44,526 bases of DNA from Candidatus Zhuqueibacterota bacterium. Its GTDB lineage: Bacteria; Zhuqueibacterota; Zhuqueibacteria; Residuimicrobiales; Oceaniaggregativiventaceae. The position numbers and the translations under genes were made by a program. The stretch lies in contig WJMF01000082.1 of the NCBI GenBank assembly GCA_014728085.1, positions 1 through 44,526 of the forward strand. Reading direction: 5' to 3'. Below are positions 4,893 through 29,910 of the stretch, piece after piece. Below the pieces are notes generated by a model. It saw only the letters and a program-made list of their open reading frames with translations, was not told the DNA's origin and did no database searches. Position 1 is the stretch's first letter. Each line of letters begins with the position of its first letter.

Positions 4893-4900
4893 AAAAGCCT

Positions 4901-5926: not shown

Positions 5927-5951
5927 AGTCGTTTACCTTTTCCGCACAAAA

Positions 5952-6944: not shown

Positions 6945-6950
6945 CTTTTT

Positions 6951-7994: not shown

Positions 7995-8009
7995 AGCCTG
8001 TTCTCAGGT

Positions 8010-8936: not shown

Positions 8937-8948
8937 GCTAACCTCCAG

Positions 8949-9827: not shown

Positions 9828-9845
9828 CGCCTGTCAACCTCTGGT

Positions 9846-10835: not shown

Positions 10836-11758
10836 TTATCCTCCCTGATCTGGTTTGATTTATTTTTTTCCAAAATCTTTTCAAACAAAGCGTAAATGCG
10901 GTCGACCTGATGTCTGTCGCCGGCACTTCCGGAAAATTTGTAAAGATCAGCAGTACTCAATATCTGGTTGATATTTTCAGACAACTCTTCATCAAGATCG
11001 CTCGATCTGACGAATTGCATAATGTCCCCCGTGGTTGCCTCAAGTCCCGGACCGATTCCCTTCTCCGCCAGATAGCTTTTCAAAAGTCTGGAAATGGTGG
11101 AATAGGCCTGAGCGGTATCCAGTTCCGGTTGATTTATATTTAATGTTTCCAGTTCATTGAGATATTTTTGTTCGGTGGGAATCGCTTCCTGTTGCTGCCG
11201 CCGAACCAAAAGACGCCTTTGCTGTCGTTTTTTCATCACAAAAAAGCCCAGAGCAGCAAAAAGAAGGAGAATCAACGCCAATAAAAGCCAGAATTGCCAT
11301 TGAAAGGCTCCTGGTTCAGGCAAAGGGTCTTCTACTTTAACCTCCAGACGGTTGGTTATGAGGCGATAATTGCGGTCTGTTTTTAAATCCGTGTATTTTA
11401 TAATAACACCCTCGATATATCCCATACCGAGGCGGCCTGGTTTGAGGATGTATTCATATTCGTTGATGGCCTGCTGGTTTCCGCCCTCCTGCAAAACGCG
11501 GTTTGAAGAAGCATTGCCGACGATTTCGAAATTCTCCAAAAGAGGATTATCGAACTTGTGAATTTCATACCGTTCAAGGTCTCCGCTCCATTGCAGGCGA
11601 ATGGTAAAGGTCACGGTTCGGTTCAGTGGCACGCTGGTTCTGTCGACAAAACACAATAGTTTAATGGCGCTTTCCTCGTCCGCCGCCGTGGAATCCTGTG
11701 CCGGCAAAACACCGGCCAAAAAACACAGCAAAAAGAGTACGATCAGGCTTTGCTTCAT
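10832..11758 (-). CDS. BatD-like protein at the head of the Bat operon
   Basis: 308 residues from the ATG at 11758, which has GAGGGG 7 bases upstream and begins the signal peptide KQSLIVLFLLCFLAGVLPAQ. The longest frame starts at 11920 but adds 54 residues with no export signal. The exported domain runs to about residue 145, a membrane span covers 155-175, then a basic stretch (KKRQQRRLLVRRQQQ) and a cytoplasmic helical domain (AYSTISRLLKSYLAEKG...DLYKFSGS). The layout is that of the BatD-like protein at 6951-7994. Its stop codon overlaps the moxR start (ATGA), so it is the first gene of the ten-gene operon. Confidence 0.75.
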   Translation of the reverse strand: MKQSLIVLFLLCFLAGVLPAQDSTAADEESAIKLLCFVDRTSVPLNRTVTFTIRLQWSGDLERYEIHKFDNPLLENFEIVGNASSNRVLQEGGNQQAINEYEYILKPGRLGMGYIEGVIIKYTDLKTDRNYRLITNRLEVKVEDPLPEPGAFQWQFWLLLALILLLFAALGFFVMKKRQQRRLLVRRQQQEAIPTEQKYLNELETLNINQPELDTAQAYSTISRLLKSYLAEKGIGPGLEATTGDIMQFVRSSDLDEELSENINQILSTADLYKFSGSAGDRHQVDRIYALFEKILEKNKSNQIREDK

Positions 11759-12018
11759 ACATACCCCTCTTTTTTCCGTAAGGGTTACGATGGTTTGATT
11801 TACATGGTTTTGGGAAAACGGATTTTTCCGCAGGATCGGAAGGACAAGCCTTTTAAACACGATTTTGCGAAACACGTTTCTCTCATATAGATTGACAATG
11901 CAATTTTGCAGAATATGCAATACAAAGAAACCCGTTCATTCAATACCCGAAAGGCCTGCGGAAAAACCTCTTTCTGCAATCACATATGAAAACCTATAAT
12001 CGAATACAATATCGCAAT
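11759..12018 (-). promoter_or_regulatory. Upstream region of the Bat operon with clustered TGCAA half-sites
   Basis: This 260-base gap must hold the Bat operon promoter unless transcription continues from 12519. I see no convincing -35/-10 pair. At 11899-11921 there are three half-sites: TGCAA (11899-11903), TTGCA (11906-11910) and TGCAA (11916-11920), forming two overlapping inverted repeats. They could bind a regulator; with arms of only 5 bases chance is also possible. Confidence 0.2.
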
Positions 12019-12604: not shown

Positions 12605-15208
12605 TTATATAAAGTCAAGCGAATTCTCCCGTATCACGACCTTTACCACTGAATCGGCTTGCAGGTTACCTTGCAGTAATCGCGTTGCCAATCTATTGAC
12701 AACCTCTTTCTGAATGTATCGCTTTAGAGGTCGGGCACCAAAAGCAGGATCGTATGCGTTCCCGGCAATAAAATCCTCTGCTTCCGGGCTCAGTTCGATT
12801 TTCACATTTTGTTTGGCCAAAAGCTTACCCACTTGTTTGAACTGCAAGCGAACAATCTTTTTGATATCCTCTTTGGTCAGCGCGTGAAAAATGATGATAT
12901 CATCGATGCGGTTGAGAAATTCAGGTAACAGTTGCTTTTTCAGCATTTGCAGGACGCTGTGGCTGATTTCGCTATGCACCTTTTCCCGGTTCTGTTCGGT
13001 TATGGTTAATGACTTTTCAAGAATTAATGGCGCGCCGATATTGGACGTCATAATAATAATGGCATTGGTAAAATTAACGGTTCTACCCTTGTTGTCGGTT
13101 AAGCGGCCATCTTCCAGCACCTGTAACAACAAATTGAACACTTCGGCGTGCGCTTTTTCGATTTCATCGAGCAAAATAACCGAATAGGGCCGTCTTCGCA
13201 CCGCTTCAGTCAGCTGTCCGCCCTCTTCGTATCCGACATAACCGGGAGGTGCCCCGATCAACCGGGAGACGGAATGCCTTTCCATATATTCCGACATATC
13301 GATGCGCACCATAGCCTGCTCATCATCAAAAAGGAATTCGGCCAGCGCCCGGGCCAGCTCCGTTTTACCCACACCGGTCGGGCCCAGAAAAATAAACGAT
13401 CCGATAGGCCTGTTGGCGTCCTGTAGCCCGGCTCTTGCCCGCCGAATGGCATCGGCAACCGCCCTGACGGCTTCATTCTGGCCGACCAGGCGTTCCTCGA
13501 TGCGCTGTTCCATTTTCAATAACTTTTCCCGTTCACTTTCCAGCATGCGCTGAACCGGTATACCCGTCCATTTTGCCACAACCTCGGCAACATCTTCTTC
13601 ATCGACCTCTTCCTTGAGCATTTTTCGATCCTTCTGCAACTCGACCAGTGTTTTATTGCTCTCTTCCAATTGGTTTTGCAGCTCCACCAGTTTGCCGTAT
13701 TTTAATTCAGCCGCCCGGGTCAGATCGCCTTCCCGCTCAGCTTTTTGACCTTCGCTTTTTACCCGGTCAATTTCTTCCTTTAAGCGGCGAATACGACCGA
13801 TACTCTCCTTTTCCAGCTCCCAATGCGCCCGCATCTCCTTGATGCTCTCTTCAAGGTCGGCAATGTCCTTCTCCACCTGTTCGAGCCGCTTTTTGGAAGC
13901 CTGGTCTTTTTCCCGGGTCAGGGCCTGTCGCTCAATCGCCAGCTGTTTCAGACGCCGTTCCAGCTCGTCGAGCTCAACCGGCATACTGTCGATTTCAATC
14001 CGCAATTTGGAAGCCGCTTCGTCGATCAAATCGATGGCTTTATCCGGCAAAAAACGATCCGTAATATAACGGTCCGAAAGCGTTGCCGCCGCCACTATGG
14101 CGGTATCCTGTATGCGCACACCATGATGTACTTCATATTTTTCCTTTAAACCGCGTAAAATGGAAATGGTATCTTCCAGAGTCGGTTGATCGACCAGAAT
14201 CGGTTGAAAACGGCGTTCCAGTGCCGCATCTTTTTCAATATATTTTCGATATTCATCCAGAGTCGTGGCTCCGATACAGCGAAGCTCTCCCCTCGACAGG
14301 GCGGGTTTGAGCATGTTGGAGGCGTCCATCGCTCCTTCTGCCGCACCGGCTCCGACCAGCGTGTGCAATTCGTCGATAAATAAAATCATTTGACCGTTTG
14401 AATCGCTTATTTCCTGCAATACCGCCTTCAGGCGTTCTTCAAATTCACCCCTGAATTTTGCCCCGGCAATCAGAGCGCCCAGATCAAGAGCGATGATGCG
14501 TTTGTTCTTCAGGTTCTCGGGAACATCTCCCTCAATAATCCGGTGAGCAATGCCTTCGGCAATGGCTGTCTTTCCCACACCTGGTTCGCCGATCAGCACC
14601 GGATTGTTTTTGGTACGGCGGGAGAGGACCTGCAACACGCGTCTGATCTCCTCATCGCGTCCGATAACGGGATCGAGTTTGTCCCGGCGCGCCAAATCAT
14701 TCAAATCACGGGCGTAGCGTTTCAATGCCTGATATTTGGCTTCGGGATTTTGATCGGTCACGCGTTGGCTGCCGCGAACCTCGCGCAGAACCTGCATCAA
14801 AGCATCCTGACTGAGGCCGCTCTGGCGCAATAAAGCACCGGCTTTGCCGCCATCTTGCGTTAAACTGAACAACAGGTGTTCAATGCTGATATATTCATCC
14901 TTGAGCGCATTCGCCTGCTGCATAGCCTTTTCAAAGACCTGATCGGTGTCGGGTGACAGGTAAACCTGCCCGATGCCGCCGGAGACTTTGGCAAGCTTGT
15001 CCACCTCTGCCCTGACTCTGTCGAGCAATATCTCCGGCTTTTGTCCGACCTTGTTCAAAATCGAACGCGCAATGCTTTCCGCCGGTTCTATGATGGCAAA
15101 TAAAAGATGTAACGGCTCAATTTGCTGCTGTCCGTATTCGGAGGTCAGCCGCTGCGCTCTCGACAGCGCTTCCTGAGCCTTTAATGTCAATTTCTCTATG
15201 GGTATCAT
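12605..15208 (-). CDS. clpB: ClpB disaggregase
   Basis: 867 residues from the ATG at 15208, which follows GGGAGG; the longer frame to 15247 would run through a terminator hairpin. The order is the N-terminal double Clp domain (1-150), AAA+ module 1 with Walker A GEPGVGKT near residue 205, a coiled-coil M domain (about 400-520) rich in Glu/Lys/Arg, AAA+ module 2 with Walker A GPTGVGKT and Walker [12 protein letters not shown], and the C-terminal D2-small domain ([15 protein letters not shown]). The M domain separates ClpB from ClpA/ClpC. It works with DnaK and DnaJ, both encoded just upstream, to dissolve protein aggregates in the cytoplasm. Confidence 0.97.
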
Positions 15209-15227
15209 ATCTTCTTTTTCCTCCCTC

Positions 15228-15260
15228 AAAAAAAAGGGCGAGAACACAGGCTCGCCCTTT
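15228..15260 (-). terminator. Rho-independent terminator hairpin in front of clpB
   Basis: On the minus strand a perfect 10-base-pair stem (AAAGGGCGAG, 15251-15260, with its complement at 15233-15242) encloses an 8-base loop (15243-15250). A run of eight T on the minus strand at 15228-15235 includes the stem's last three bases. It ends only about 20 bases before the clpB start. It would stop transcription arriving from dnaK. Confidence 0.8.
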
Positions 15261-15285
15261 ATATCGTTATGCTATCTATAGTCAA
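15258..15285 (-). promoter_or_regulatory. Candidate clpB promoter overlapping the terminator arm
   Basis: On the minus strand TTGACT (15280-15285) and TATAAA (15258-15263) are 16 bases apart. The -10 box overlaps the first arm of the terminator hairpin, and the expected start (about 15250) is at its end. A transcript from this promoter would lack the first arm and could not form the hairpin. Confidence 0.55.
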
Positions 15286-15626
15286 TGGGAGCTATATCAA
15301 GAATATTAATCGTACTATTTTTTCAGGTTTCTTAATGAATACAAACCGCAGAGAAAAAATATAAAAATTTTTCTTGACTGTGTTGTTCCCGGCTCTTTAT
15401 TCAAATATTCCCTATACTCGTTATCAAGCCTGTTTATAATCCGCAACAAGCCGGAGAACGCGAAGAAAGCTCTTATGATCAAGTTATGAACGTATGCATT
15501 CATACTTGCTACAGTCTTATATTTTCTTCGCGTTCCTCAGCGTTCTTTGCGGTTCTGGATCGCTGAAACCCGATAGCAAAATACTGCCTTTTGCATTTCC
15601 GGCTATCTTTATACTACCATGACAGC
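15264..15626. repeat. dnaK-clpB intergenic region with a dispersed GCG-rich repeat in inverted arrangement
   Basis: Apart from the clpB promoter, this gap holds no gene. The segment 15521-15554 belongs to a dispersed family characterised by CGTTCTTTGCGGTT; copies recur at 33956-34020 and 34151-34215. Inside the gap, GAGAACGCGAAGAAA (15454-15468) is the inverse of the sequence at 15523-15538, and AAACCGCAGAG near 15343 faces the CTTTGCGGTT end. The region therefore looks like a roughly 210-base inverted-repeat element. A 62-residue frame at 15315-15503 lies within it and has no protein-like features. Confidence 0.5.
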
Positions 15627-17558
15627 TTATTTTTTATCCTCGTCAACCACTTCGTAATCGGCATCTTCTGCCTGTTCTGAATCATCCGATTTCTCTTCAC
15701 CGGCGGCCTGCTGCTCTTCGCCCTGCGGCCCGGCTTGCGGTCCGCCCTGCTGAGCACCTTCGGTTGACTGATACATCTGCGAGGCAACCGTCTGCCATAT
15801 CTGATTAAGGTCATCAATGGCTGACTTGATTTCATTGCTGTTATCGGCTTTGGTTGCTTCTTTAACCCGCCCGATAGCAGCTTCCAGTTTATTCTTGGAA
15901 TCGGAATCGATTTTATCTCCGCTCTCCTTCAGGCTCTTTTCAGTCTGATAGACCAGCTGATCCGCCTGGTTGCGGAGATCGATCAATTCGCGTTTCTGCT
16001 TGTCTTCTGATTCATGCGATTTGGCATCGTTGACCATATTCTCGATTTCTTCCTTGCTCAGACCGGTAGATGCCTCGATACGTATCGATTGTTCCTTACC
16101 GGTGGCCTTGTCCTTGGCCGACACGTTGAGGATACCATTGGCATCGATATCAAAAGTAACCTCGATCTGTGGTACCCCTCGTGGAGCCGGCGGAATACCG
16201 TCCAGGTGAAATCGTCCCAGGCTGCGGTTATCACGCGCCATTTCTCTTTCTCCCTGTACCACATTGATTTCAACCGATGTCTGGTTATCCGCAGCGGTAG
16301 AGAAAATTTCGGACTTTTTCGTTGGTATCGTTGTGTTCTTTTCGATCAATTTGGTCGTGACACCACCCAGCGTTTCAATACCCAGGGAAAGCGGCGTAAC
16401 GTCCAGCAAGAGCACATCTTCAACATCGCCGCCAAGCACACCACCCTGAATAGCGGCACCGATAGCAACAACCTCATCCGGGTTTACACCCCTGTGAAGT
16501 TCTTTGCCGAAATATTCTTTTACCATCTGCTGAATCTTGGGCATTCTTGTCGAACCACCCACCATAACAATCTCATCGATTTCAGAGGGCTCGAGACCGG
16601 CATCCTGTAATGCTTTCTTGACCGGTTCCAGACTGCGGGTAAACAGATCGTCACAAAGTTTCTCAAAGTTCGATCTGGTCAGCGTCATATTTAAATGTTT
16701 GGGACCGCTGTCTGTCGCCGTGATAAAAGGTAAATTGATCTCAGTTTGTGACGTGGAAGACAATTCTACCTTGGCCTTTTCCGCTGCTTCTTTTAATCTT
16801 TGCAGGGCCATGGGGTCCTTCGAAAGGTCTACGCCTTCCTGTTTGATAAATTCATCTACCATCCAATCGATAATACGTTGATCAAAGTCATCACCACCCA
16901 GGTGAGTGTCTCCATTGGTGGCCTTGACCTCAAATACACCGTCACCGATTTCAAGAATGGAAATATCGAATGTTCCGCCACCAAGATCGTATACGGCAAT
17001 TTTTTCGTTTGCCTTTTTATCCAGACCATAAGCAAGTGAAGCCGCCGTCGGTTCATTGATTATACGACGAACGTTTAATCCGGCAATCTCGCCGGCTTCC
17101 TTGGTGGCCTGACGCTGACTGTCATTAAAATATGCCGGTACGGTAATCACAGCATCGGTCACCTTTTCTCCGAGATGATCCTCGGCGGTCTGTTTCATTT
17201 TTTGCAGAATGATCGCCGATAATTCCTGAGGCGTATATTCCTTATCATCGATCTTTATCTTGACGACATTGTTCTGGCCCGCAATAACCTTATAGGGTAC
17301 TTCTTCGCGTTCACGGTCGACCTCGTTATAGCGCCGTCCCATAAAACGCTTGATAGAAAAAATCGTCTTTTGCGGGTTGGTAATTGCCTGTCGTTTTGCA
17401 ACCTGACCAACCAGCCGCTCTCCGCTTTTGCTGAATGCCACCATTGACGGGGTGGTTCGCTGTCCTTCGCTGTTCTGTATGACAGCAGGCTTGCCACCTT
17501 CCATTACAGCCACACAAGAGTTGGTGGTTCCCAGGTCGATTCCAATAATTTTACCCAT
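15627..17558 (-). CDS. dnaK: Chaperone DnaK (Hsp70)
   Basis: 643 residues, the normal length. It begins [22 protein letters not shown], has the ATPase phosphate motif [14 protein letters not shown] and the adenosine motif [12 protein letters not shown], then the linker [19 protein letters not shown] and the substrate-binding domain. The C-terminal tail is Gln/Gly/Glu-rich and ends [12 protein letters not shown], close to the EEVKDKK-type ending of bacterial DnaK. GGGAG lies 10 bases before the ATG. The gene stands alone between a terminator (17672-17712) and clpB, with its own upstream region. Confidence 0.98.
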
Positions 17559-17632
17559 ATTAAAACAACTCCCTTCTTTAGTCGTTGATTATTTTACGTA
17601 TTCATGTTTTACTTTATTTTTTTCTCTTATAT

Positions 17633-17648
17633 GCAAATGATGTGCCAA
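17633..17648 (-). promoter_or_regulatory. Sigma-54-type promoter candidate upstream of dnaK
   Basis: On the minus strand the sequence is TTGGCACATCATTTGC. This matches the sigma-54 -24/-12 consensus TTGGCACG-N4-TTGC at 15 of its 16 positions in register. The GG is at 17645-17646 and the GC at 17633-17634. The start would lie near 17621, leaving a leader of about 63 bases. An alternative is a poor sigma-70 -10 (TATAAG) just downstream. No CIRCE operator was found here. Confidence 0.5.
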
Positions 17649-17671
17649 CAAAAAAGAAGCCACTTTAATAT

Positions 17672-17712
17672 ATAAAAAACAAGCACATAAGATATTTTCC
17701 CATGTGCTTGTT
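17672..17712 (-). terminator. Rho-independent terminator after fmdB
   Basis: On the minus strand an 11-base-pair stem (AACAAGCACAT, with arms at 17702-17712 and 17678-17688) has a 13-base loop and is followed by a T-rich run (17672-17679). It closes the dnaJ-degP-fmdB group and separates it from dnaK. Confidence 0.8.
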
Positions 17713-17749
17713 CTCAACGTGACAATTGACAAGTTGGCAAAAAATCTGA

Positions 17750-17968
17750 CTAATTGTCAGGCTTTTCCGCCTTTTCGCTTTTTTTTGATCTTTTATAATC
17801 GGTAATATAAAACCCCGATCCTTTAAAAATCAATCCCTGGCCGCCGCCGATAAGGCGGACGACCTGTCCATTGCACAGGGGACACTCGTCAATCATTTCA
17901 TCAGAAATTTTTTGAAATACCTCGAACTGATGTCCACATGCTTTGCACCGATAGTCATAGGTCGGCAT
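17750..17968 (-). CDS. FmdB-family zinc ribbon protein
   Basis: 72 residues. It starts MPTYDYRCKACGHQFEVFQ, the hallmark of the FmdB/CxxC_CxxC regulatory family. The zinc ligands are C8-x2-C11 and C30-x2-C33, followed by the usual GGGQGLIFKGSGFYITDYK. The charged tail KRSKKSEKAEKPDN is probably disordered. The family is named from a regulator of formamidase expression, but most members have no known role. It lies 68 bases after degP and before a terminator, so it probably shares that transcript. The ATG has GGAG upstream within a duplicated 20-base unit. Confidence 0.9.
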   Translation of the reverse strand: MPTYDYRCKACGHQFEVFQKISDEMIDECPLCNGQVVRLIGGGQGLIFKGSGFYITDYKRSKKSEKAEKPDN

Positions 17969-17969
17969 T

Positions 17970-18009
17970 GTTCATTCTCCATCTCAAGCGTTCATTCTCC
18001 CTCTTAAGC
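17970..18009 (-). repeat. Tandem 20-base duplication containing the fmdB ribosome binding site
   Basis: Two adjacent 20-base units (17970-17989 and 17990-18009) match at 18 of 20 positions. Each carries GGAGAATGAAC on the minus strand, so the Shine-Dalgarno region of fmdB is doubled. The upstream copy would open a three-codon frame (ATG AAC GCT TGA) that stops just before the true start. Confidence 0.7.
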
Positions 18010-18036
18010 GTTTAAACGACAAATGTAATCCACGGT

Positions 18037-19554
18037 CTATTCGTTATCCGGCATTCTCAGCGCTGCAAACAGGCTGACATTGCCGCGTTTCAGGCGAAAG
18101 AGAACGATTTCATCAGCATTTATTTTTTCCATTTCTTCGTTAAAATCACCGAGATTTTTCACCGCCTTGCGGTTTACAGCGGTAATCAGATCGCCTTTTC
18201 GAATGCCCTCGAGATCAGCCACTGAATTGCTTTTAACATTCGAGACCAAAACACCATCTTCGCCTTCGTAACCCAGGCGCGAAGCGAGGTCATCAGTTAA
18301 CGCCTGTACGTCAAATCCCAGCTTTTCCGTGGCAGAAGAGGCTTCCGGGCTTTCCGCAACGGGCTCGCTGCCGGGTCGTTCTCCCAGTTTAACCTCAACA
18401 CTCTTTTCCTTCTCATTTCGCCAGATCGTCAGGTCCACTTTACTATCCGGCGCATAAGAGGCAATGACGCGCTGCAGTTCTTCAACAGAATCCATCTGTT
18501 TACCATTCACCTTAAGAATAATATCTTCAGATCGTAATCCGGCTTTTTCCGCCGGTGAATCATTCTGTACCATGGTCACCAAAACACCGGTTGTCTCATC
18601 CAGACCAAAAGATTTCGCCAGCTTTTCATCTACAGCCTGAATATTGACGCCGAGAAATCCACGTATAACGCGTCCCTTCTCAACGAGCTGTTCCATAACA
18701 TCCTTGACCATATTGACCGGAATAGCAAAGCCGATGCCGACATTTGCCTGTCCTACAATAGCGGTGTTGATTCCCACAAGCTCTCCGCGCAAATTGACCA
18801 GTGCCCCACCGCTGTTACCGGGGTTGATCGCTGCGTCGGTCTGGATAAAATCCTGATACTGGATACCCTGATTGCCGCCAAGCGCCAGTCCGGAACGACC
18901 CTTGGCACTGACAATTCCCGCTGTAACCGTATTCTGCAAGATACTATCGAACGGATTTCCGATCGCCAATACCCATTCGCCGACTTGCAGCTCATCGGAA
19001 TCACCGAGACGGACAGTGGCCAGGTCTTTTTTCTCGATTTTAATGACTGCAACATCGGTGAGCGGGTCGGTGCCGATAACTTGTGCTTTGTATTCCTCCC
19101 CTTTATAAGAAACCTGAATCTCATCGGCTTCATCGACAACATGATTATTGGTTACAATATATCCATCGGATTTTACAATCACACCGGAACCCAGTCCGCG
19201 CAAGATTTGCTCTTCATCTTGCTGCGGCATATTGAAAAAGCGTCGGAAAAAATCGTCATCGAAAAAAGGATGAACTTTTCGCTGAACCACGGCTTTGCTC
19301 TTGATCGTCACAACCGCCGGATTGACTTCTTTGGCAACCCAGGTAAATGCTTTGCTCATCGTTTCCATCGATGCAACTTGTTCGGGAACAGGTTCCTGGG
19401 AGCCAAAGACAACTGCTTTTACTTTCGGCTCCGGTAACGGGCTCGCCGCTTCACTGTGGCTGGTGAAATCAAAATTTGAAGCGATAATCAATCCACTGAC
19501 AATGCCGACAAAAATCGCCATCAAGATAACGAGCGAAAAAATTTTGCTTTTCAT
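18037..19554 (-). CDS. degP: DegP/HtrA-family serine protease with two PDZ domains
   Basis: 505 residues from the ATG at 19554, which has AAAGGAAAC upstream. The longer frame to 19656 would overlap dnaJ and hide the N-terminal membrane segment SKIFSLVILMAIFVGIVSGLIIA. The trypsin-like domain has the full triad: His in TNNHVVDEAD, Asp in DPLTDVAVIKIE and Ser in NPGNSGGALVN. PDZ1 begins at RGFLGVNIQAV and PDZ2 at KLGFDVQALTDDLASRLGYEGEDGVLVS. It degrades or refolds damaged proteins in the periplasm. The gene follows dnaJ by 19 bases. Confidence 0.95.
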   Translation of the reverse strand: MKSKIFSLVILMAIFVGIVSGLIIASNFDFTSHSEAASPLPEPKVKAVVFGSQEPVPEQVASMETMSKAFTWVAKEVNPAVVTIKSKAVVQRKVHPFFDDDFFRRFFNMPQQDEEQILRGLGSGVIVKSDGYIVTNNHVVDEADEIQVSYKGEEYKAQVIGTDPLTDVAVIKIEKKDLATVRLGDSDELQVGEWVLAIGNPFDSILQNTVTAGIVSAKGRSGLALGGNQGIQYQDFIQTDAAINPGNSGGALVNLRGELVGINTAIVGQANVGIGFAIPVNMVKDVMEQLVEKGRVIRGFLGVNIQAVDEKLAKSFGLDETTGVLVTMVQNDSPAEKAGLRSEDIILKVNGKQMDSVEELQRVIASYAPDSKVDLTIWRNEKEKSVEVKLGERPGSEPVAESPEASSATEKLGFDVQALTDDLASRLGYEGEDGVLVSNVKSNSVADLEGIRKGDLITAVNRKAVKNLGDFNEEMEKINADEIVLFRLKRGNVSLFAALRMPDNE

Positions 19555-19573
19555 AATAGTTTCCTTTCCAGGT

Positions 19574-20572
19574 TTAATGGGCCAGTCCTGCTTCTCTCGC
19601 AAAATCTTCAAGGATCTTTTTCGATGATCCGGATAGTTTCGAGGGTATTTGAACATGGAGACGCACGTAAAAATCTCCCTTTTGTCCCTTTGCCTCCAGT
19701 CCCAGCTTTTTCAATTTGAACAATTTACCGTTTTGACTGCCCTGGGGAATTTTAAGCTGGACTTCTTTTCCGTCAAAGGTACGCACATTTATCTTTGAAC
19801 CCAGCACTGCCTGAACCACGTTGATGTTTACCGTCGTATAAAGGTCCAGGCCCTTTCTCTCGAAAACAGGGTGCGGCAAAACCTGAACGGTGACGATCAA
19901 CGAGCCGCGCTCGCCTCCACCCATTCCGGGTTCTCCTAATCCGCGCAGACGTATCTGTTTACCGCTATCCGAAGCAGGGGGTATATTGATGCAGACCTTT
20001 TTAGACTCGTTTATCGTTCCGGAGCCGCCACAGGTACTGCAAAATGTCGATCGCGACATAAAGCCTCCTTTACCGCTGCATTGCGGACAGGCTTTTTTGA
20101 AATTCAAAGAAACCGTATGTTTGCCGCCCCGCGCAGCAGTCTCAAACGGTATATGCACCGTCGCCCTCAGGTCATTTCCTTTTTGCCGTATGTCGGTGGC
20201 ATTGTTTCTGCCACTGAAAAATTGACTGAATAAATCCTCAAATTCAAATGCACCGCCGAATCCTCCTGTGCTCCGTTTTGTACGTGCACGACCACCGAAC
20301 ATGGAAGAAAGATCTTCAAAATCAAATCCCTGAGAATTGTATTGCTGATGATTGCCGTATTTTCGCAGTTGATCGTATTTTTTTCGCTTCTCCTTGTCCT
20401 TGAGGACCGCATACGCCTCTGAAATCTCTTTAAACCGTTCTTCGGCCTGTTTGTCATTCTTATGCGTGTCAGGATGGTACTTTTTCGCCAACTGACGATA
20501 AGCAGACTTTATCTGGTCCTGCGTGACATTTTCCTCAACACCTAATATTTTATAAAAATCTTTTTGCTGCAT
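19574..20572 (-). CDS. dnaJ: DnaJ-family co-chaperone with a halved zinc-finger region
   Basis: 332 residues, against about 375 for standard DnaJ. The J domain (5-70) has HPD at 33-35. A Gly/Phe-poor linker ([13 protein letters not shown]) follows, then a zinc region with only two CxxCxGxG motifs (CPQCSGKG and CSTCGGSG) instead of four, enough for one zinc site. The C-terminal client-binding domains are typical ([54 protein letters not shown]). It is thus intermediate between DnaJ and CbpA. It would stimulate DnaK, encoded nearby. The ribosome site is weak (AGAAAAG). Confidence 0.88.
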
Positions 20573-20959: not shown

Positions 20960-21640
20960 TTACTCTTCGCGCAACAGTAGCAGGCGGATCAAATTCAAGA
21001 CTGCAACCGCTGCCGCAGCGACATAGGTCAGAGCCGCTGCATCCAGCACTTTTTTGGCACCCCGAACCTCATTGCCGACAAGGTATCCGCCGGAATTCAA
21101 CTGTGCCAGGGCCCGTTTGCTCGCATTAAACTCTACCGGCAGCGTGATAAGGGTAAAAAGAACAGAGCCGGCATAAAGTATGATACCGATATCAACGAGA
21201 ACGGGAATGGAAAAAAAGATTCCACCGATCAGCAGCGGCATCAAAAGAGAAGAACCAAAACGCGCAATCGGGAATATCGCCTGCCGTAGCATCAGAGCGC
21301 GATAACCTACCTGATGCTGTATGGCATGCCCGGTCTCATGCGCCGCGACTCCCAGCGCCGCCAGCGAATTGGAATGATATACCTTCCCGGACAAACGCAG
21401 CTTTTTCTTGATGGGATCATAATGATCAGATAACCGCCCTTCCACCTCTTCAACCTCAACATCATGAATTCCATTTTGCTGCAGCATACGCCTGGCCACA
21501 TCAGCTCCGGAATAACCGGACGACGCCCGTACCTTACTCATTTTTTCAAAGGTGCTCTTTACCCTGGACTGTGCATACAACCCCAGTAAAAGAGCCGGAA
21601 CCAAAAGCAATATATCCGTCAAGCTGAAAAAAGGGATCAT
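20960..21640 (-). CDS. Membrane zinc metallopeptidase, YugP type
   Basis: 226 residues from the ATG at 21640, preceded by GAGGAGG. The longer frame uses a TTG inside that ribosome site. An N-terminal membrane helix (FFSLTDILLLVPALLLGLYAQ) is followed by GYSGADVARRMLQQNGI and the family motif LAALGVAAHETGHAIQHQ, where H101, E102 and H105 form the HExxH zinc site. C-terminal hydrophobic segments include LLIGGIFFSIPVLVDIGIILYAG and AAAVAVLNLIRLLLL, and LPVEFNASKRAL is the typical family stretch. The active site should face the cytoplasm or sit near the membrane; natural substrates are unknown. It is the last gene of the operon starting at 24409. Confidence 0.9.
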   Translation of the reverse strand: MIPFFSLTDILLLVPALLLGLYAQSRVKSTFEKMSKVRASSGYSGADVARRMLQQNGIHDVEVEEVEGRLSDHYDPIKKKLRLSGKVYHSNSLAALGVAAHETGHAIQHQVGYRALMLRQAIFPIARFGSSLLMPLLIGGIFFSIPVLVDIGIILYAGSVLFTLITLPVEFNASKRALAQLNSGGYLVGNEVRGAKKVLDAAALTYVAAAAVAVLNLIRLLLLREE

Positions 21641-21702
21641 CGGAAACCTCCTCAATTCTATTTTCTATTATTAGACTCTGGTCAAGTAAAAAAGTTTCAA
21701 AA

Positions 21703-21921
21703 TCATGATCTGAAATCACGGCGTACTTTTTCGAATTTATCTTTAAGGCGATCTTCAAAGGAGGGAAATAAAAGAATGATGCCGAATATCAACAGTAACC
21801 AGCCCGGCAAAATGGGAAGAATGAGACCGCTCAACCCTAAAATGATAAAAACCACCGCCAATATCGGTTTTTTCTTGCGGAACAGGCGTATATCCTCAAC
21901 CAATCTGCTCTTCCTGCTCAT
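21703..21921 (-). CDS. Small PGPGW-like membrane protein
   Basis: 72 residues from the ATG at 21921, whose ATGA overlaps the stop of the preceding gene; the frame could extend to 21993 but that would overlap the DUF2914 gene by 76 bases. The basic N-terminus MSRKSRLVEDIRLFRKKKP is followed by two close membrane helices with LPILPGWLLLIFGIILLFP between, which resembles the PGPGW family of putative transmembrane proteins. A charged C-terminus (FEDRLKDKFEKVRRDFRS) follows. The family has no established function. Confidence 0.75.
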   Translation of the reverse strand: MSRKSRLVEDIRLFRKKKPILAVVFIILGLSGLILPILPGWLLLIFGIILLFPSFEDRLKDKFEKVRRDFRS

Positions 21922-22457
21922 ATCAACTCGAATGATAATTGCGTTAACAATTGCCCTGAACTCATCACCTGCAACAGCCAGGATCCTTGCCACGCAGGAA
22001 TCATTTCCATTTTGCTGACTAGTATCTGCTCTCCGGGGGAAACCGAAAACGTCTCTTCATGCACTAGCCGGTCGTCATAGATCCATCGATGGCTCATACT
22101 GTATGTCTCAGAACTGTTGACCCTTACATAGCAATAGAGATGATCCACCAGCTTGCTGAATTCGGACTTGAATATGAGGGGCCGGCCATTTTCCACGTCA
22201 AGACAAATCACCGCCTGCTCAATAGTTAAAGCGTGGTGCGTCGGTTGCTTTTTCTCTTCCTCCACCGGAGCAGGGGTCGGGGTCGGAACCGATGCGATGG
22301 ATTCTTCAACAGCGGTTTGCACTTGCGGTTCCACAGCCTGAGGCGCCTTCGCGTAATGGCGTTGATATTTTAAGACCACAAATATGGCAAACAGAATGAA
22401 CACAATCTGCAACAGCCAGCTGATTTTAATCTTGAATATGGATTTGATCGTGGACAT
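21918..22457 (-). CDS. DUF2914-type membrane-anchored protein
   Basis: 179 residues. A single N-terminal membrane helix (ISWLLQIVFILFAIFVVLKY) is followed by a Pro/Glu-rich stalk (about 40-75) and a C-terminal DUF2914-like domain. In that domain FSKLVDHLYCYVRV, SHRWIYDDRLVHEETFSV and WQGSWLLQVMSSGQLLTQLSFEL follow the family's expected pattern of His-Trp-x-Tyr and Gly-x-Trp. It overlaps the upstream gene by 32 bases and the downstream gene by 4. The domain most likely lies outside the cytoplasm. Confidence 0.78.
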   Translation of the reverse strand: MSTIKSIFKIKISWLLQIVFILFAIFVVLKYQRHYAKAPQAVEPQVQTAVEESIASVPTPTPAPVEEEKKQPTHHALTIEQAVICLDVENGRPLIFKSEFSKLVDHLYCYVRVNSSETYSMSHRWIYDDRLVHEETFSVSPGEQILVSKMEMIPAWQGSWLLQVMSSGQLLTQLSFELI

Positions 22458-23067
22458 TTGGACTCATTTGTTTAAGGCGATTTAAATGAACCGCTATTTT
22501 TTGTCGGAAAAGACGTATCAGAATTTGATTGTTCCGAATCTCGGATTCCCATTCGATCCATTTTCTGTCAAAAGGCGCCAGGCGTTTGTAGATATATATT
22601 CCCAGCAGCAGGAAAAAATACCCGGCAACCATGATCGGATGCTGAAAAAATGGCCGGCCTGACAACGCTGTAACCGGTAAAAGTAAAATCACAAAAAGAA
22701 CACCGTGTTCAAACCATTTGAATTGTTTCATCAGCCGCTCAAGCCGTCTGTTCCTGATCTGCAAGTTGCCGATACGATCCATCAGCCCTTGAATGCGCTT
22801 TTTTTCTTTGGCGATTTCTTTGGATAATTTATCCCTGAGCGCATCGCGATGCATGGCGATGACATCCCTGATGATCAGGGCAGCCTGGTATTCCTGCGAT
22901 TTTTTCAGGGCAATCGCATTATAACGCGCCGCCCCGTCAAGATCGCCTCCCTTTAACGACCTGATCGACTGGCGGTGATAGGCGCCCCTGGGGAGCCATT
23001 GTTTTTTATCGGCAAGCGAATATCCCAATCTCAACAGCGCTATTGCCGGTAGAGACCATAAAGCCAT
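22426..23067 (-). CDS. Membrane protein with coiled coil, function unknown
   Basis: 213 residues, not recognised. The N-terminal 55 residues resemble a TPR-like helix pair (YHRQSIRSLKGGDLDGAARYNAIALKKSQEYQAALIIRD). Residues about 75-115 are a strongly charged coiled coil (LSKEIAKEKKRIQGLMDRIGNLQIRNRRLERLMKQ). Two membrane helices follow (GVLFVILLLPVTAL and IMVAGYFFLLLGIYIY), then a second coiled coil (WIEWESEIRNNQILIRLFRQKIAVHLNRLK). It starts 13 bases after the preceding gene and overlaps the next by 32. Its place in the operon suggests a membrane scaffold. Confidence 0.7.
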   Translation of the reverse strand: MALWSLPAIALLRLGYSLADKKQWLPRGAYHRQSIRSLKGGDLDGAARYNAIALKKSQEYQAALIIRDVIAMHRDALRDKLSKEIAKEKKRIQGLMDRIGNLQIRNRRLERLMKQFKWFEHGVLFVILLLPVTALSGRPFFQHPIMVAGYFFLLLGIYIYKRLAPFDRKWIEWESEIRNNQILIRLFRQKIAVHLNRLKQMSPNVHDQIHIQD

Positions 23068-23080
23068 ATCGATTTCGTTC

Positions 23081-23386
23081 CTATTTCATGGCCAGCGCAC
23101 GTTCCAGATATTCAACCGCCTTTGGGTAGCGGTTGCGAACCTGGTCCCACTCGGCATTGCTCAACGCTGCCGGTTCTTTACCGGTTACGCTCACAGCACC
23201 GTCATAAACGAGTTGTATAAGATCGCGGTTGGCGTGTAATATCCCAAGCGAGGCTCCGGCGATTTCGAAAACACCGTTGATAAATTCCACGCCCATTGCC
23301 GATTCCAGACCATGTTCAATGATATAGCCGGCAACGCCACCGATGGCACCATGCCTGAATGATTTTGATAAACGTTCACTCTTCAT
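23081..23386 (-). CDS. Small glycine-rich hypothetical protein
   Basis: 101 residues from the ATG at 23386, which has GAGGAAAC upstream; the longer frame to 23425 has no ribosome site. The start overlaps the preceding gene's end by 11 bases. The N-terminal half (FRHGAIGGVAGYIIEHGLESAMGVEFINGVFEIAGASLGILHANRD) has spaced glycines like a glycine-zipper membrane-active segment. The C-terminal half (SNAEWDQVRNRYPKAVEYLERALAMK) is amphipathic and TPR-like. I do not recognise the family. Confidence 0.68.
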   Translation of the reverse strand: MKSERLSKSFRHGAIGGVAGYIIEHGLESAMGVEFINGVFEIAGASLGILHANRDLIQLVYDGAVSVTGKEPAALSNAEWDQVRNRYPKAVEYLERALAMK

Positions 23387-23588
23387 TTGTTTCCTCTTGT
23401 AATTTAGATAAAGCTTTTCGTACATATTCGTCTTTTTTTCGTAAAGCAGTTCTTAAACGGTGTACCTCTTTACGGAGTTCCCGTGTTTGTTTATTGGCAA
23501 AGAGTTTCCCCCAAATCGTTTCAAAAACAATGACACCGGCAATGGCCAGTATCATACCGAATATAAAACTTAAAAGATCTATGTTCAT
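23376..23588 (-). CDS. Small single-span protein with coiled-coil tail
   Basis: 70 residues. A membrane helix (IDLLSFIFGMILAIAGVIVFETIW, residues 3-26) is followed by a charged coiled coil (NKQTRELRKEVHRLRTALRKKDEYVRKALSKLQEETNEE). Its ATG overlaps the stop of the STAS-HATPase gene (ATGA), so translation is probably coupled. It could hold that regulator, or the next proteins, at the membrane; this is inference from order and shape only. Confidence 0.72.
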   Translation of the reverse strand: MNIDLLSFIFGMILAIAGVIVFETIWGKLFANKQTRELRKEVHRLRTALRKKDEYVRKALSKLQEETNEE

Positions 23589-24409
23589 GCTTGTTCCTTC
23601 AAATATTTGGTCATAATCAGCTGGTTTCCCTCCAGCGTATCCTCTGTATAGGATAAATCATCCACCGCCCGTTTGATGATATGCAACCCCATGCCGCCCC
23701 GTTCTCTGCCGGAAACGGCATTTTCAATATCAAATGACTTTGTATCATCAACCTGAAATCCCTCTCCAAAGTCGATTATACGAATAACAAGCCTGTCCGG
23801 TTTCACCTCAACATTTACATCGATGGAGCGATTGGTATCGGAATGATAAGCATGTTCGATCACGTTCAGACAGGCCTCATAGACGGCAATCTTGATCTTG
23901 TTGATTTCGGACTGGGTCAATCGTAAACGGCCGGCAATATCGGTAACAAAATCACAGGCTCGATAGAGATGATTCACCCGGCTCGCAATTCGAATCGATC
24001 GGTTGACTATCTTGATATCCGAACGTTCCGGTTCCGTACGTTTAGGCGCAGAATGGGTATTGAACAGATCGAGCGCTTTGCTGATATGATCGCATTTATT
24101 TAAAAAATTGAGCGGATGAAAACGGTCCAGATCCGTTTTCGCAGAAGACTGCAGATTGAGCATCACCAGGTTTCCGCCCTTTCTGCGAAATTTGGCAGTC
24201 ATTTCAAGCAGCAATACCACCAAACTCGACGGCAGACCGGATAGACGCCCTAAATCGAGTATGACAAAGAATTTCTTTTTTTCCAGCAACTTTTCAAATA
24301 CCCGCTGCAACACCGGGACCAGAGCAATATCGGATTCCGGAATGAGCGGAGTAACTTTGACAACATTTTTGGCTTTACCGGTTTGTACGATGCGAACAAG
24401 GTTGTCCAT
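23585..24409 (-). CDS. STAS domain fused to an RsbW/SpoIIAB-like HATPase
   Basis: 274 residues. Residues 1-115 read as a STAS (anti-sigma antagonist) domain: VILDLGRLSGLPSSLVVLLLEM replaces the usual D-S-S-G loop, keeping Ser61 and Ser62 but losing the Asp. Residues 140-270 are a GHKL ATPase of the anti-sigma kinase type: N-box EACLNVIEHAYH (E178, N182, H186), G1 box DFGEGF (213-218) and G2 box GRERGGMGLHII. Normally these two functions are separate, opposing partners. No sigma factor or PP2C phosphatase lies in the window. It heads a tightly overlapping operon of small membrane proteins. Confidence 0.82.
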   Translation of the reverse strand: MDNLVRIVQTGKAKNVVKVTPLIPESDIALVPVLQRVFEKLLEKKKFFVILDLGRLSGLPSSLVVLLLEMTAKFRRKGGNLVMLNLQSSAKTDLDRFHPLNFLNKCDHISKALDLFNTHSAPKRTEPERSDIKIVNRSIRIASRVNHLYRACDFVTDIAGRLRLTQSEINKIKIAVYEACLNVIEHAYHSDTNRSIDVNVEVKPDRLVIRIIDFGEGFQVDDTKSFDIENAVSGRERGGMGLHIIKRAVDDLSYTEDTLEGNQLIMTKYLKEQA

Positions 24410-24500: not shown

Positions 24501-26219
24501 TTACAGTTCCCGGCGTAATGGCTTTCCGAGCAGATTTTTGGGAATGACTTGAACAAATTCGATGATTTTAGGAACTTTATAATCAGCAAGTTCATGTTTA
24601 CAAAAGGCGATAATTTCCAGACAGGAGAGACTTGACTCTTTTTCCAATACCACCACGGCTTTAACCACCTGCCCCCAAAAGGAATCATCCACGCCCACTG
24701 CACAGGCATCATGAATATCCGGATGCCGAAGCAATACCTGTTCAATCTCTGACGGATAAATATTATATCCCCCCGAGATAATGAGATCCTTATATCTCGA
24801 GACAATATAAAAATAACCCTCTGAATCAACTTTGGCCAGATCACCCGTGCGGAGCCACCCATCGCGGAAAGCAGCTTTGCTCTCCTGCACATTTTGCCAG
24901 TAACGTTTCATGACCTGAGGCCCTTTTACCCACAACTCGCCAATCTCTCCGGCCGCCTTTTCTTCTTCACTTTCCATATCGACGACTCTGGCCAGCGTGT
25001 CCGGCCAGGGTATACCTATGCTGGACGGTTTGTTGCATCCGCGAATCGGGTTGCAGTGCGTAATCGGTGAAGCTTCGCTCAATCCATATCCCTCCACCAG
25101 TTTGGTGCCAAAGCTTTCTTCAAACTCTTTTTTCAATCCTTCGTCAAGCGGGGCCCCGCCGCTGATACAGGCGCGCAAAGAGGTAAAGCTGTTCTGTTTT
25201 TGGGAATTTTCCCCCACCATAGCTGCGAACATGGTCGGTACACCCGGGAAAAGGGTGATGCGGTGCTTTTGGATGAGTTTGATGACGCGTTTTGCATTAA
25301 AACGGGGATCGAGCACCATCTTTGCCCTGGTATAAACGGAGAGAAGGTGGCACGCCATTTGACCATAACTGTGAACAAGGGGTAAACAGGCCAGTATCAC
25401 CTCCTCCCCGTCGCGCATATCCGTAATCCAGGCATGCGCCTGAATGACATTGGCCAAAAGATTACGATGGCTGAGCTCGGCACACTTGGAGGTTCCGGTC
25501 ACACCTCCGGTAAACAGCAAAATGGCGGTATCATCCGGCTCGCTCTCTGACATGTCGCCACAGGGATGACGCCTCAATATCTGGCGATAAAAAACGATAT
25601 TGCGATGTTTTTGAATTCTGTTCCGGGTTTTATCGAGCCGGTTTTTAAAGTGAACGGCAATTTTCAAAAAGGCCGGCAAGTAGGTCTCCAGGCAGGCGAT
25701 GACCACAACCGTATTTTGCAAGGTATCGACATAGCGCTCGAGACGGGGAAAAATCCGATCCAGTACCACGATCATAGCGGGATCGATGCTCAACAGCTGA
25801 TATTTAAACTCGCGTTCGGATAAAAGCGGATTAATCGGTACAACCGTGGCCCCGATATAAAGAGCAGCCCAGTAGGAAATAATATACTGCGGAATATTGG
25901 GCAAAATCAGGGCGACGCGGTCTCCCTGTTGCACACCGGATTCCTTCATTCCCCGGGCAAATCTCAGCATGAGCTGGTGTATATACTTGTAGGTAAAGGG
26001 CTTGCCAAAGTAGGAGATCGCACAATTTGCCGGCGCCTCGTTTACCGAATTGAACCAGAGATCGACCAGGGAAAAGTCTGGAATATCAATGCGTTCCGGC
26101 ACTCCCTTGTCATAGGCGTTCAGCCAGACCGGTTTTCTGCCCCTGGCAGGATGCCGGCGTTTAAGAGAATCGAGACCGCTCTGCAAAGCGGTACATATTC
26201 TTTTTTTTAGTTGACTCAT
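24501..26219 (-). CDS. Long-chain acyl-CoA synthetase, FadD-like AMP-binding enzyme
   Basis: 572 residues. The AMP-forming ligase motifs are in order: the phosphate loop LLFTGGVTGTSK (235-246, where Val and Ser replace the more common Thr and Pro), VEGYGLSEASPITHCNP, WLRTGDLAKVDSEGYFYIVSRYKDLIISGGYNIYPSEIE, and the C-terminal lysine region NLLGKPLRREL. It should activate a fatty or related acid to its CoA thioester; substrate length cannot be read from sequence. It follows the polyferredoxin gene by 14 bases. No clear ribosome site precedes the ATG, so coupled translation is likely. Confidence 0.9.
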   Translation of the reverse strand: MSQLKKRICTALQSGLDSLKRRHPARGRKPVWLNAYDKGVPERIDIPDFSLVDLWFNSVNEAPANCAISYFGKPFTYKYIHQLMLRFARGMKESGVQQGDRVALILPNIPQYIISYWAALYIGATVVPINPLLSEREFKYQLLSIDPAMIVVLDRIFPRLERYVDTLQNTVVVIACLETYLPAFLKIAVHFKNRLDKTRNRIQKHRNIVFYRQILRRHPCGDMSESEPDDTAILLFTGGVTGTSKCAELSHRNLLANVIQAHAWITDMRDGEEVILACLPLVHSYGQMACHLLSVYTRAKMVLDPRFNAKRVIKLIQKHRITLFPGVPTMFAAMVGENSQKQNSFTSLRACISGGAPLDEGLKKEFEESFGTKLVEGYGLSEASPITHCNPIRGCNKPSSIGIPWPDTLARVVDMESEEEKAAGEIGELWVKGPQVMKRYWQNVQESKAAFRDGWLRTGDLAKVDSEGYFYIVSRYKDLIISGGYNIYPSEIEQVLLRHPDIHDACAVGVDDSFWGQVVKAVVVLEKESSLSCLEIIAFCKHELADYKVPKIIEFVQVIPKNLLGKPLRREL

Positions 26220-26233
26220 CTTATGCGAGTATT

Positions 26234-27772
26234 TTAGTATATACTCTCACTGGCCGCTGTTTCTGTTGCCGCCGTAACAAAGATCCCGGGTTTTCCCACC
26301 ACCGGGCACTTGTTCTCACATATGCCGCAGCCAATACAGGTATCCTCGATGACATAGGGAAATTTGACTTTTTTAACCGAGCCGTCAAACGTTTTTACCT
26401 CCTGTATATCAAATTTAATCGCTTTATCGGAAACCGGACAGTGCTCTTCGCACACCAGACAATCATTGTGGCTATACCAGGGAATACAGCGGCTTTTGTC
26501 AAAATAGGCAGTTCCCATTTTGGCGTTTTTCTTTTCTTCAATATCAAGGTTTTCAATCGCACCGGTGGGACAAACCTGGCCGCAGAGATTGCAATTGTAT
26601 TCACAATAACCCAATCTCGGAATGGAAATCGGCGTCCATAGCGACTCGAGGCCTTTTTGCGTCAAAGCCGGTTGTAAACATCCCCCCGTGCTGTTGCAGA
26701 TTTTAACGCACTCTTGACAGCGAATGCAACGATCCAGGAACTCATCTTCTTCCAAAGCACCCGGTGGTCTGATGGCATTGCCGGCACGGTTGCGGTCACG
26801 GGCCATAGCGTTTAAAACTCCGATTCCGCCAAGACCGGCAACCGAGGCGAGGACAAATTTTCTCCTCGACAAATCGATTTCATTTTTACCCCGGTTCGAG
26901 CCAAAGGTGTATGAAATAGCATCGGGCTTGCAAACATGTTGACAGGTATCGCACTCTATGCATTCCACTGTATTGTTGATGCTATAGTCATCTTCGATGG
27001 CGTTCATCTTGCACTCACGCTGACAAATACTGCAGCTGGTACAATCGGATGACACGTAACGCTTGACGATACGATATTTGGAAAAAATACCAAGCAAGGC
27101 ACCCAGAGGACACAAATTGCGGCACCAAAATCGCTTTTGGAAAAATCCCAGTGCCAGGATACCTGAAAAGAGCAGCAGCGTGATCAGAACCTGATAAAAG
27201 GCCGGTTGGCTCAGAGGTAAAAAGCTTTCCTGAGCGGTATTGTACAGGCTGTATACCTGATCCTCGAGCACGCCCGGGGAAAAGCCGATGTCAAAAGCAG
27301 CGTGAATAATAAATATGAGAACCGGGAAAAACACCAGAGTGGTAACCCGCGTAAAAAGTGCAATCGGATCGAAATAACCCACCAATTGGGTAGAAAAAAC
27401 AGCGCTGACCAGCAGAAAGACGAGCAGAACAAATTTATAGGAGCGAAAGTGCAGCGTATCGCGTTGTCGTGGTTTTTTTCGGCGCTCCTTGATCAAAAAG
27501 CGATCGGAAGCATCCAGGGTGGTTCCCAGTGGACAAATCCAGCCACAAAAAACGCGTCCCAGTGGAATCGTCAAAAGCAATACGATGAGCCCGACCACCA
27601 TGGTGGCGATAAAGGCCCGGGCGGAAATCATGGTTGCAATGGCAACCAATGGACTGGCACGCAAAAACAGATCAGAGGGGAGGCCGGTTTCATAGGGATA
27701 ACGTGCCTGAAAAAACAAAAAGAAGAAAAAGAGTAAAAAGAAAACCTGAAAAAGTCGTCGCGCCGTTCTCAT
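26234..27772 (-). CDS. NapH/NapG-like fused polyferredoxin
   Basis: 512 residues joining two proteins usually encoded apart. Residues 1-300 are NapH/NosR-like: membrane helices, two CxxxCP motifs (C76/C80 and C217/C221), and two 4Fe-4S motifs (C244, C247, C250, C254 and C271, C274, C277, C281). Residues 302-306 read SRRKF followed by VLASVAGLGGIGVL, like a Tat signal inside the chain. Residues 345-490 are NapG/MauM-like with four more cluster motifs (starting C349, C390, C429 and C479). Six 4Fe-4S clusters are thus expected. It probably carries electrons from quinol to an exported acceptor. It sits 9 bases after the DUF362 gene. Confidence 0.85.
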   Translation of the reverse strand: MRTARRLFQVFFLLFFFFLFFQARYPYETGLPSDLFLRASPLVAIATMISARAFIATMVVGLIVLLLTIPLGRVFCGWICPLGTTLDASDRFLIKERRKKPRQRDTLHFRSYKFVLLVFLLVSAVFSTQLVGYFDPIALFTRVTTLVFFPVLIFIIHAAFDIGFSPGVLEDQVYSLYNTAQESFLPLSQPAFYQVLITLLLFSGILALGFFQKRFWCRNLCPLGALLGIFSKYRIVKRYVSSDCTSCSICQRECKMNAIEDDYSINNTVECIECDTCQHVCKPDAISYTFGSNRGKNEIDLSRRKFVLASVAGLGGIGVLNAMARDRNRAGNAIRPPGALEEDEFLDRCIRCQECVKICNSTGGCLQPALTQKGLESLWTPISIPRLGYCEYNCNLCGQVCPTGAIENLDIEEKKNAKMGTAYFDKSRCIPWYSHNDCLVCEEHCPVSDKAIKFDIQEVKTFDGSVKKVKFPYVIEDTCIGCGICENKCPVVGKPGIFVTAATETAASESIY

Positions 27773-27781: not shown

Positions 27782-28675
27782 TTACGTCATATTGATGGTT
27801 TTAACCTTGATTTTGGAAAGATCCATTGTTCCCAGCCCGCGATCCTGGGCGATTTTCAAATATTCCATTTGATTGGGATCGACATCGAGCAGGGTAATGG
27901 CATACGCATCGGCGGCAACGCGGTCGGTTGCGGCGATACACTCCTTTTTCGTAACGACATCGGCAAGATTTCCGCCGGACGGTCCGTTGCGCAACAAGAC
28001 GCGATACGCATCGATCAGCGTTAGAGTCGGTTTCACCGCCATATTGATATCAACGATCTTGGTCATAAAATTTCGATGAATCGCTCCGCGGTCGCCTCCC
28101 AGAATGCCCATCATGTTTTTAAATCCAAGGGTCACTCTGGAAATAGAGTGGTGCTTAACAATGGGCATATTAATCAGCACATCGGCATCCAGGGCGTCTT
28201 TATAAAAAGGCCAGGATTGAATCATCTCACCACCGGGAATATCTACATCTTTGAAACGGCTGTCGACGATATGGCGAACCTCGGCTCCGGCTCCCTTGGC
28301 AGCCTCTTCGATACCACTACGGCGATAGCAACGGCGGGCTTGATTGCAGGTTCGGTCCAGGACCCGTACCCAGTCTGCACCGGCATTTGTACACAGTTTG
28401 ACCATTTCCGCAACAGCTTCCGGATTGGTGTTGGCGGCCTGCTCCGGAACACGGTCCCAACCAATATTGGGCTTGATCAAAACCTTTTGTCCTTTTTTAA
28501 CAAAGCGTTCGATACCGCCGATGTTTTCCACCGCCCGGCGAACCATTTCCGCCGGCGAGCCGTTCTTAACGATGACCATATCCGGTATCTCATTTTGAGC
28601 AAACAGGGAAGCGGTACCAATACCTGCCGCACCGGCTACTGTTGTTCTGATAAAATTTCGTCTGTTTATATTCAT
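27782..28675 (-). CDS. Tat-exported DUF362 protein
   Basis: 297 residues from the ATG at 28675, which has GGAG upstream; the frame could extend to 28714 but that enters a terminator. The N-terminus NINRRNFIRTTVAGAAGIGTASLFA is a classic Tat signal with adjacent arginines. The rest matches DUF362: KKGQKVLIKPNIGWDRVPEQAANTNPEAVAEMVKLC, DADVLINMPIVKHHSISRVTLGFKNMMGI and AADAYAITLLDVDP. No 4Fe-4S motif lies in this protein, but a ferredoxin-rich protein is encoded right after it. DUF362 members have no agreed reaction. Export in folded form suggests a bound cofactor. Confidence 0.87.
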   Translation of the reverse strand: MNINRRNFIRTTVAGAAGIGTASLFAQNEIPDMVIVKNGSPAEMVRRAVENIGGIERFVKKGQKVLIKPNIGWDRVPEQAANTNPEAVAEMVKLCTNAGADWVRVLDRTCNQARRCYRRSGIEEAAKGAGAEVRHIVDSRFKDVDIPGGEMIQSWPFYKDALDADVLINMPIVKHHSISRVTLGFKNMMGILGGDRGAIHRNFMTKIVDINMAVKPTLTLIDAYRVLLRNGPSGGNLADVVTKKECIAATDRVAADAYAITLLDVDPNQMEYLKIAQDRGLGTMDLSKIKVKTINMT

Positions 28676-28702
28676 TGTAAAACTCCATTCCTTAAATAAA
28701 AA

Positions 28703-28733
28703 AGCCCACCCCAATTGACACTTAAGGCGGGCT
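28703..28733 (-). terminator. Rho-independent terminator after the 28756-29784 TPR gene
   Basis: On the minus strand an 8-pair stem (AGCCCGCC at 28726-28733 with GGTGGGCT at 28703-28710, one G-T pair) and a 15-base loop are followed by TTTTTATTT. It lies about 28 bases before the DUF362 ATG, so that operon needs a promoter at or before this hairpin. Confidence 0.72.
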
Positions 28734-29822: not shown

Positions 29823-29910
29823 TGGTGCCGAAGGCGGGATTTGAACCCGCACGCCCGGTTAGGCACTACCCCCTCAAGATAGCGTGTCTACCAAATTCCA
29901 CCACTTCGGC
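29823..29910 (-). tRNA. tRNA-Leu (anticodon GAG)
   Basis: On the minus strand the gene runs from GCCGAAG (5' acceptor arm, ending at 29910) to CTTCGGC plus A and an encoded CCA (29823-29825). The anticodon loop TTGAGGG is at 29871-29877, with GAG at 29873-29875. A long variable arm (TGCCTAACCGGGCGT) confirms a class II tRNA, and the T loop GGTTCAAATCC is normal. It reads CUC/CUU leucine codons. It lies 12 bases after secG and may be cut from that transcript. Confidence 0.96.

Follow-up and report, generated by a model that had tools for sequence, protein, structure and literature searches.

The window, by which we mean the whole 44,526-nucleotide stretch of DNA that was analysed, comes from an uncultured member of candidate division KSB1, a phylum for which the name Zhuqueibacterota has been proposed (PMC11683472). 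Seven same-strand open reading frames that overlap or nearly touch lie on its minus strand at 20960-24409, and the first of them encodes a fusion of a STAS domain to a HATPase_c_2 kinase domain, designated SH. These genes, the two domains of SH and the flanking genes that bear on the limits of the run are as follows, in the direction of reading.

27782..28714, minus strand: DUF362 protein, further upstream in the run
26234..27772, minus strand: membrane polyferredoxin (Fer4_5/Fer4), further upstream in the run
24501..26219, minus strand: FadD-type acyl-CoA ligase, the usual upstream neighbour of SH and probably co-transcribed with it; 91 bp from SH in the window
23585..24409, minus strand: SH, STAS-HATPase_c_2 fusion kinase, 274 aa (open reading frame and Pfam)
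24104..24337, minus strand: SH residues 25-102, STAS domain, decayed, with Ser61 at the acceptor position (Pfam; acceptor column variable)
23606..23986, minus strand: SH residues 142-268, GHKL/HATPase_c_2 kinase domain (Pfam; invariant E178, N182, D213, G239 and G241)
23376..23588, minus strand: S70, 70 aa, single span and coiled coil, unnamed family (open reading frame and alignment)
23081..23386, minus strand: G101, 101 aa, helical, without a span, unnamed family (35 residues invariant in ten relatives)
22426..23067, minus strand: T213, 213 aa, TPR-like hairpin, long coiled coil, two-span hairpin and coiled coil, unnamed family
21918..22457, minus strand: DUF2914 protein, 179 aa, anchored in the membrane at its N terminus (17 loci in the phylum)
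21703..21921, minus strand: P72, 72 aa, two-span hairpin with an LP(I/V)xPG motif (start set from the ATGA overlap and relatives)
20960..21640, minus strand: ZnP, Zn_peptidase_2 (YugP-type) membrane HExxH metallopeptidase, 226 aa (35 loci in the phylum)
12605..20572, minus strand: DnaJ-DegP-FmdB-DnaK-ClpB chaperone/protease block, downstream, 387 bp from ZnP

A first-pass annotation of this DNA had treated the seven genes as one unit on the strength of their overlaps, and all of these are real: ATGA overlaps at 23588-23585 (SH/S70) and 21921-21918 (DUF2914/P72), and overlaps of 11 bases (S70/G101) and 32 bases (T213/DUF2914). The starts of ZnP and P72 are better placed at ATG 21640 (226 aa, with a good ribosome-binding site) and ATG 21921 (72 aa), both later than in the longest open reading frame, and that of G101 at ATG 23386. 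A scan of the window for promoter and terminator consensus sequences gave no clear excess over shuffles and so does not fix the borders of the unit. No CIRCE heat-shock element was found in the window, and the sole Rfam match in it is a tRNA at 29826-29910.

The true start of the unit is probably upstream of SH. In 20 of the 29 loci in which FadD precedes SH the gap is 60 bp or less (median 22 bp), sometimes with an ATGA overlap, and because FadD is thus often translationally coupled to SH, the latter is not the head of the unit, contrary to what had been proposed. At the other end, the DnaJ-DegP-FmdB-DnaK-ClpB block is probably a unit of its own, apart from ZnP. Many relatives carry GrpE between ZnP and DnaJ (for example at L055 4521-5090); the window does not. 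After ClpB, positions 2284-11920 of the window hold a BatD/TPR/VWA (BatA/BatB-like) and DUF58/MoxR run, and the order DnaK-TPR-BatD-like-MoxR-DUF58 recurs in relatives too.

The first-pass annotation had made its proposal depend on conserved co-occurrence of these genes outside this genome. Such conservation was found: the seven-gene set recurs, in the same order, among the 60 related genomes searched, and, of 82 phylum genomes, 66 encode a full-length SH and five others give matches that are partial or cut by a contig end. Loci were compared one per genome for 68 genomes, that of G003 lacking SH at a contig break. Read along its own strand, SH is followed by P72 in 16 loci, by S70 in 12, by DUF2914 in 10, by ZnP in 10 and by DegP in 3, and it is preceded by FadD in 29 and by polyferredoxin in 8. 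SH usually lies between FadD and P72, ZnP or DegP. Median gaps are short (SH-P72 8 bp, SH-S70 2.5 bp, S70-G101 -18.5 bp, G101-T213 13.5 bp). The same gene order is kept in relatives whose SH proteins are only 30-45% identical, and the reading frames of S70 and G101 overlap in 12 of 12 loci, for which reasons the run is taken to be more than a chance arrangement. The SH tree follows the families of the phylum. The seven-gene run is a real unit that is widely conserved in this phylum.

The kinase domain of SH scores 96.7 against a Pfam cut-off of 27.4 for HATPase_c_2, and the STAS domain scores weakly, 23.6 against 22.6. Only RsbW and SpoIIAB were found as relatives of solved structure in the PDB, and with the RsbW/RsbV and SpoIIAB/SpoIIAA systems SH shares the kinase fold and the catalytic residues. 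The five invariant residues listed above are present in 66 of 66 SH proteins, with the N box and G boxes intact. In those systems, however, a distinct antagonist protein carries a conserved phosphoacceptor serine, whereas in SH the antagonist is fused to the kinase and the motif is lost. The acceptor column of the SH alignment, which we take to correspond to the phosphorylated serine of SpoIIAA and RsbV (compare the review PMC8256260), is occupied by Ser in 15 of the 66 proteins, by Thr in 9, Pro in 16, Ala in 11 and other residues in 15, and glycine two places past it occurs in none. All eight of this genome's free-standing STAS proteins have both residues. A serine does lie one place past the acceptor in 42 of the 66 SH proteins, so that a shifted acceptor is possible. 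The window's own SH keeps Ser61, alone among the 11 trio-bearing genomes in the alignment (the trio being S70, G101 and T213), and phosphorylation in cis is therefore possible in this genome. The earlier description of a partner-switch regulator with antagonist and kinase in one chain thus stands as regards the two domains, both of which Pfam recognizes, and not as regards a working antagonist, since the acceptor motif has decayed across the phylum.

No Sigma70_r2 match was found on the window's contig (C219), in agreement with the earlier remark that the unit has no sigma factor, a further difference from RsbW/RsbV and SpoIIAB/SpoIIAA. Likewise, the proteins of the window's operon and its neighbours that were scanned include no SpoIIE/PP2C phosphatase, and a Pfam scan of 23 members revealed no HTH on SH. 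Elsewhere the genome has 15 SpoIIE-type matches and 17 sigma-70 region 2 matches, and it also encodes a separate canonical SpoIIE-STAS-kinase module (L124). The best reading of the SH sequences is that they represent a non-canonical STAS-GHKL kinase and not a canonical antagonist-plus-kinase switch.

The three genes that follow SH in the window belong to no named family. Strong matches to the G101 and T213 profiles were obtained in the same 13 of 82 phylum genomes. Weak T213 matches in five more (E 1e-3 to 5e-6) were set aside as noise from coiled coils, G101 being absent from the genomes concerned. SH-S70-G101-T213 is contiguous in 12 of the 13 trio genomes, some sets being cut by a contig end, and in G003 it is split over two contigs. 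In G017 this set stands alone (L050 9380-11435), away from FadD and ZnP, and its G101 reading frame is broken; 95 bp downstream of the set, in the same orientation, comes a Tricorn-type protease (L050 6051-9284). When presence of the trio was mapped on the SH tree, 6 changes were required, at least 4 of them forced by well-supported branches. An old trio that was lost repeatedly is a likelier history than a recent transfer, because in the distant f9 genomes the trio occupies the same place and T213 is only 17-19% identical. Over the same distance G101 retains 58% identity, which places it under much the strongest constraint in the trio.

Hydrophobicity indicates one span for S70 in 12 of 12 relatives, a hairpin of two spans for T213 in most, and none for G101 in any. 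G101 is therefore not to be counted among the small or unknown membrane proteins of the earlier account. In the AlphaFold model of T213 (pLDDT 85) a TPR-like hairpin is accompanied by a helix of 76 residues, a second membrane span and a helix at the terminus, and the model of G101 is all-helical and weak (pLDDT 70). Sequence searches of the PDB with these two proteins gave chance or generic TPR matches only, and Foldseek gave no meaningful match (no E value under 0.3 for T213 or under 2.6 for G101). No relatives of G101 were found in plasmids or viral contigs, PHROGs gave nothing of weight, and neither did PADLOC for the partners of SH.

Of the remaining products, the DUF2914 protein belongs to its family by score (PF11141, 29.5 against 23.6), and a second DUF2914-like protein, 28% identical, is encoded elsewhere in the genome at L030 (G000:C113:57195-57512). 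A literature search on DUF2914 gave no relevant paper and no tested function of the family. P72 resembles DUF454 and FxsA in its two-span, PG-containing hairpin but falls below both curated cut-offs (18.8 against 35.1 and 16.5 against 25.2, respectively). ZnP, in contrast, is a clear member of Zn_peptidase_2 (PF04298, 299 against 27 bits, with HETGH present), and the run does end, as had been noted, with a membrane metallopeptidase. No tested function of Zn_peptidase_2 was found in the literature searched, and we know of no previous linkage of this family to a GHKL kinase.

It must be considered whether the linkage of SH to protease genes has any functional meaning. If genes in this phylum are rearranged slowly, SH might merely have remained beside protease and chaperone genes. 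The synteny does extend far past the seven genes, from GAPDH and TIM to ClpB, BatD and MoxR, and GAPDH, TIM and DnaK may be linked to the run in this way only. However, in the outgroup families f15-f17 none of GAPDH, TIM, DUF362, DnaJ, DnaK or ClpB is near SH, and only the genes that flank it survive: the order FadD-SH-ZnP-DegP is kept in G062, G064 and G066, and G065 shows SH-ZnP-DegP, from SH on, at a contig end. This conserved order is the best evidence here, and it points to a linkage beyond slow rearrangement. Further, family f11 keeps SH-P72-ZnP without the rest of the run, in G017 the trio has relocated together with SH, and the junctions within the run overlap. Neutral gene order is on these grounds an unlikely explanation. 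Another possibility is that SH regulates FadD or the supply of phospholipid, the proteases being bystanders. FadD is the commonest upstream neighbour and is often coupled to SH, regulation of the Mla lipid transporter by a STAS protein is reported (PMC7367683), and this genome contains a kinase-STAS-MlaE-ABC run. Yet families f8 and f11 have SH-P72-ZnP but not FadD, which is also missing from the four-gene core of G017, and we regard a role in lipid homeostasis as distinctly unlikely.

Two other explanations would assign SH to a known class of switch. In the canonical scheme SH would sequester a sigma factor and phosphorylate its own STAS domain in cis, and a SpoIIE phosphatase would reset the system. 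The fusion of a STAS domain to an RsbW-like kinase, the Ser61 of the window's SH and the many SpoIIE-type and sigma-70 proteins of this genome are all compatible with such a scheme. It becomes very unlikely when one considers the acceptor column, in which proline is about as frequent as serine and the glycine is never found, the contig without a sigma-factor match and the separate module that already has the canonical composition. The other class is that of the CapK/VapK kinases (CapKS, VapKSC), in which STAS and GHKL domains also share one chain and a separate, adjacently encoded STAS protein is phosphorylated (PMC13373217). SH has the same domains, but no STAS gene lies next to it in any of 68 loci, which leaves a substrate in trans without a neighbouring candidate, whereas capS or vapS is adjacent in those systems; CapK has an additional N-terminal HTH that SH lacks; and those operons are immune, whereas protease and chaperone genes surround SH. 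Thus, SH at most works like CapK/VapK and is not assigned to that group. Moreover, PADLOC gave no match for SH, which is near-universal in the phylum and vertically inherited, unlike mobile defence genes. That SH is an immune or DNA-damage kinase of this type is therefore highly improbable.

The reading that we prefer, with a confidence that falls a little short of even, is that the run is one expression unit for quality control of inner-membrane and envelope proteins, under the control of the non-canonical kinase SH. The first-pass annotation had suggested a membrane signalling or quality-control module, and the gene company favours this: the Zn-peptidase, DegP and GrpE/DnaJ/DnaK/ClpB. SH would be a serine kinase of the RsbW/GHKL type that works in the cytoplasm, and its STAS domain, having lost the phosphoacceptor loop, may serve as a built-in docking or regulatory domain and not as a substrate. 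Where they are present, S70 and T213, with their spans, coiled coils and one TPR hairpin, might form a membrane platform together with soluble G101, and this platform would bind SH and relay the state of the membrane to it. SH would then act on a free-standing STAS protein, for which CapK and VapK offer a precedent, or on P72 or ZnP directly, and would thereby set the activity or supply of ZnP and of the adjacently encoded DegP-type protease. It is a more doubtful proposition that SH represents a new class of membrane-tethered switch kinase, in which a GHKL kinase that bears a dead antagonist domain and is docked on a platform of three new families gates membrane proteolysis directly, without a sigma factor.

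No described system that matches the whole seven-gene set was found, which agrees with the earlier word "undescribed", and to our knowledge no envelope stress regulator has been described for this phylum. If the preferred reading is correct, kinases of the partner-switch type would be tied to envelope proteolysis. Zn_peptidase_2 and DUF2914 would gain a candidate pathway, and three unnamed families, among them G101 with its 35 invariant residues of about 101, gain a genomic context and a testable partner.

Two further observations concern genes outside the run. A tight run on the minus strand at L122 (G000:C8, 1-2253) comprises a HATPase_c_2 kinase, a STAS protein whose DSSG motif is intact, an MlaE permease and an ABC ATPase, that is, a serine-kinase/antagonist pair ahead of an Mla-type lipid transporter. 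In the window itself, positions 61-1356 encode a protein of 431 aa whose long C-terminal tail is rich in Ser and Arg and ends in a run of serines.
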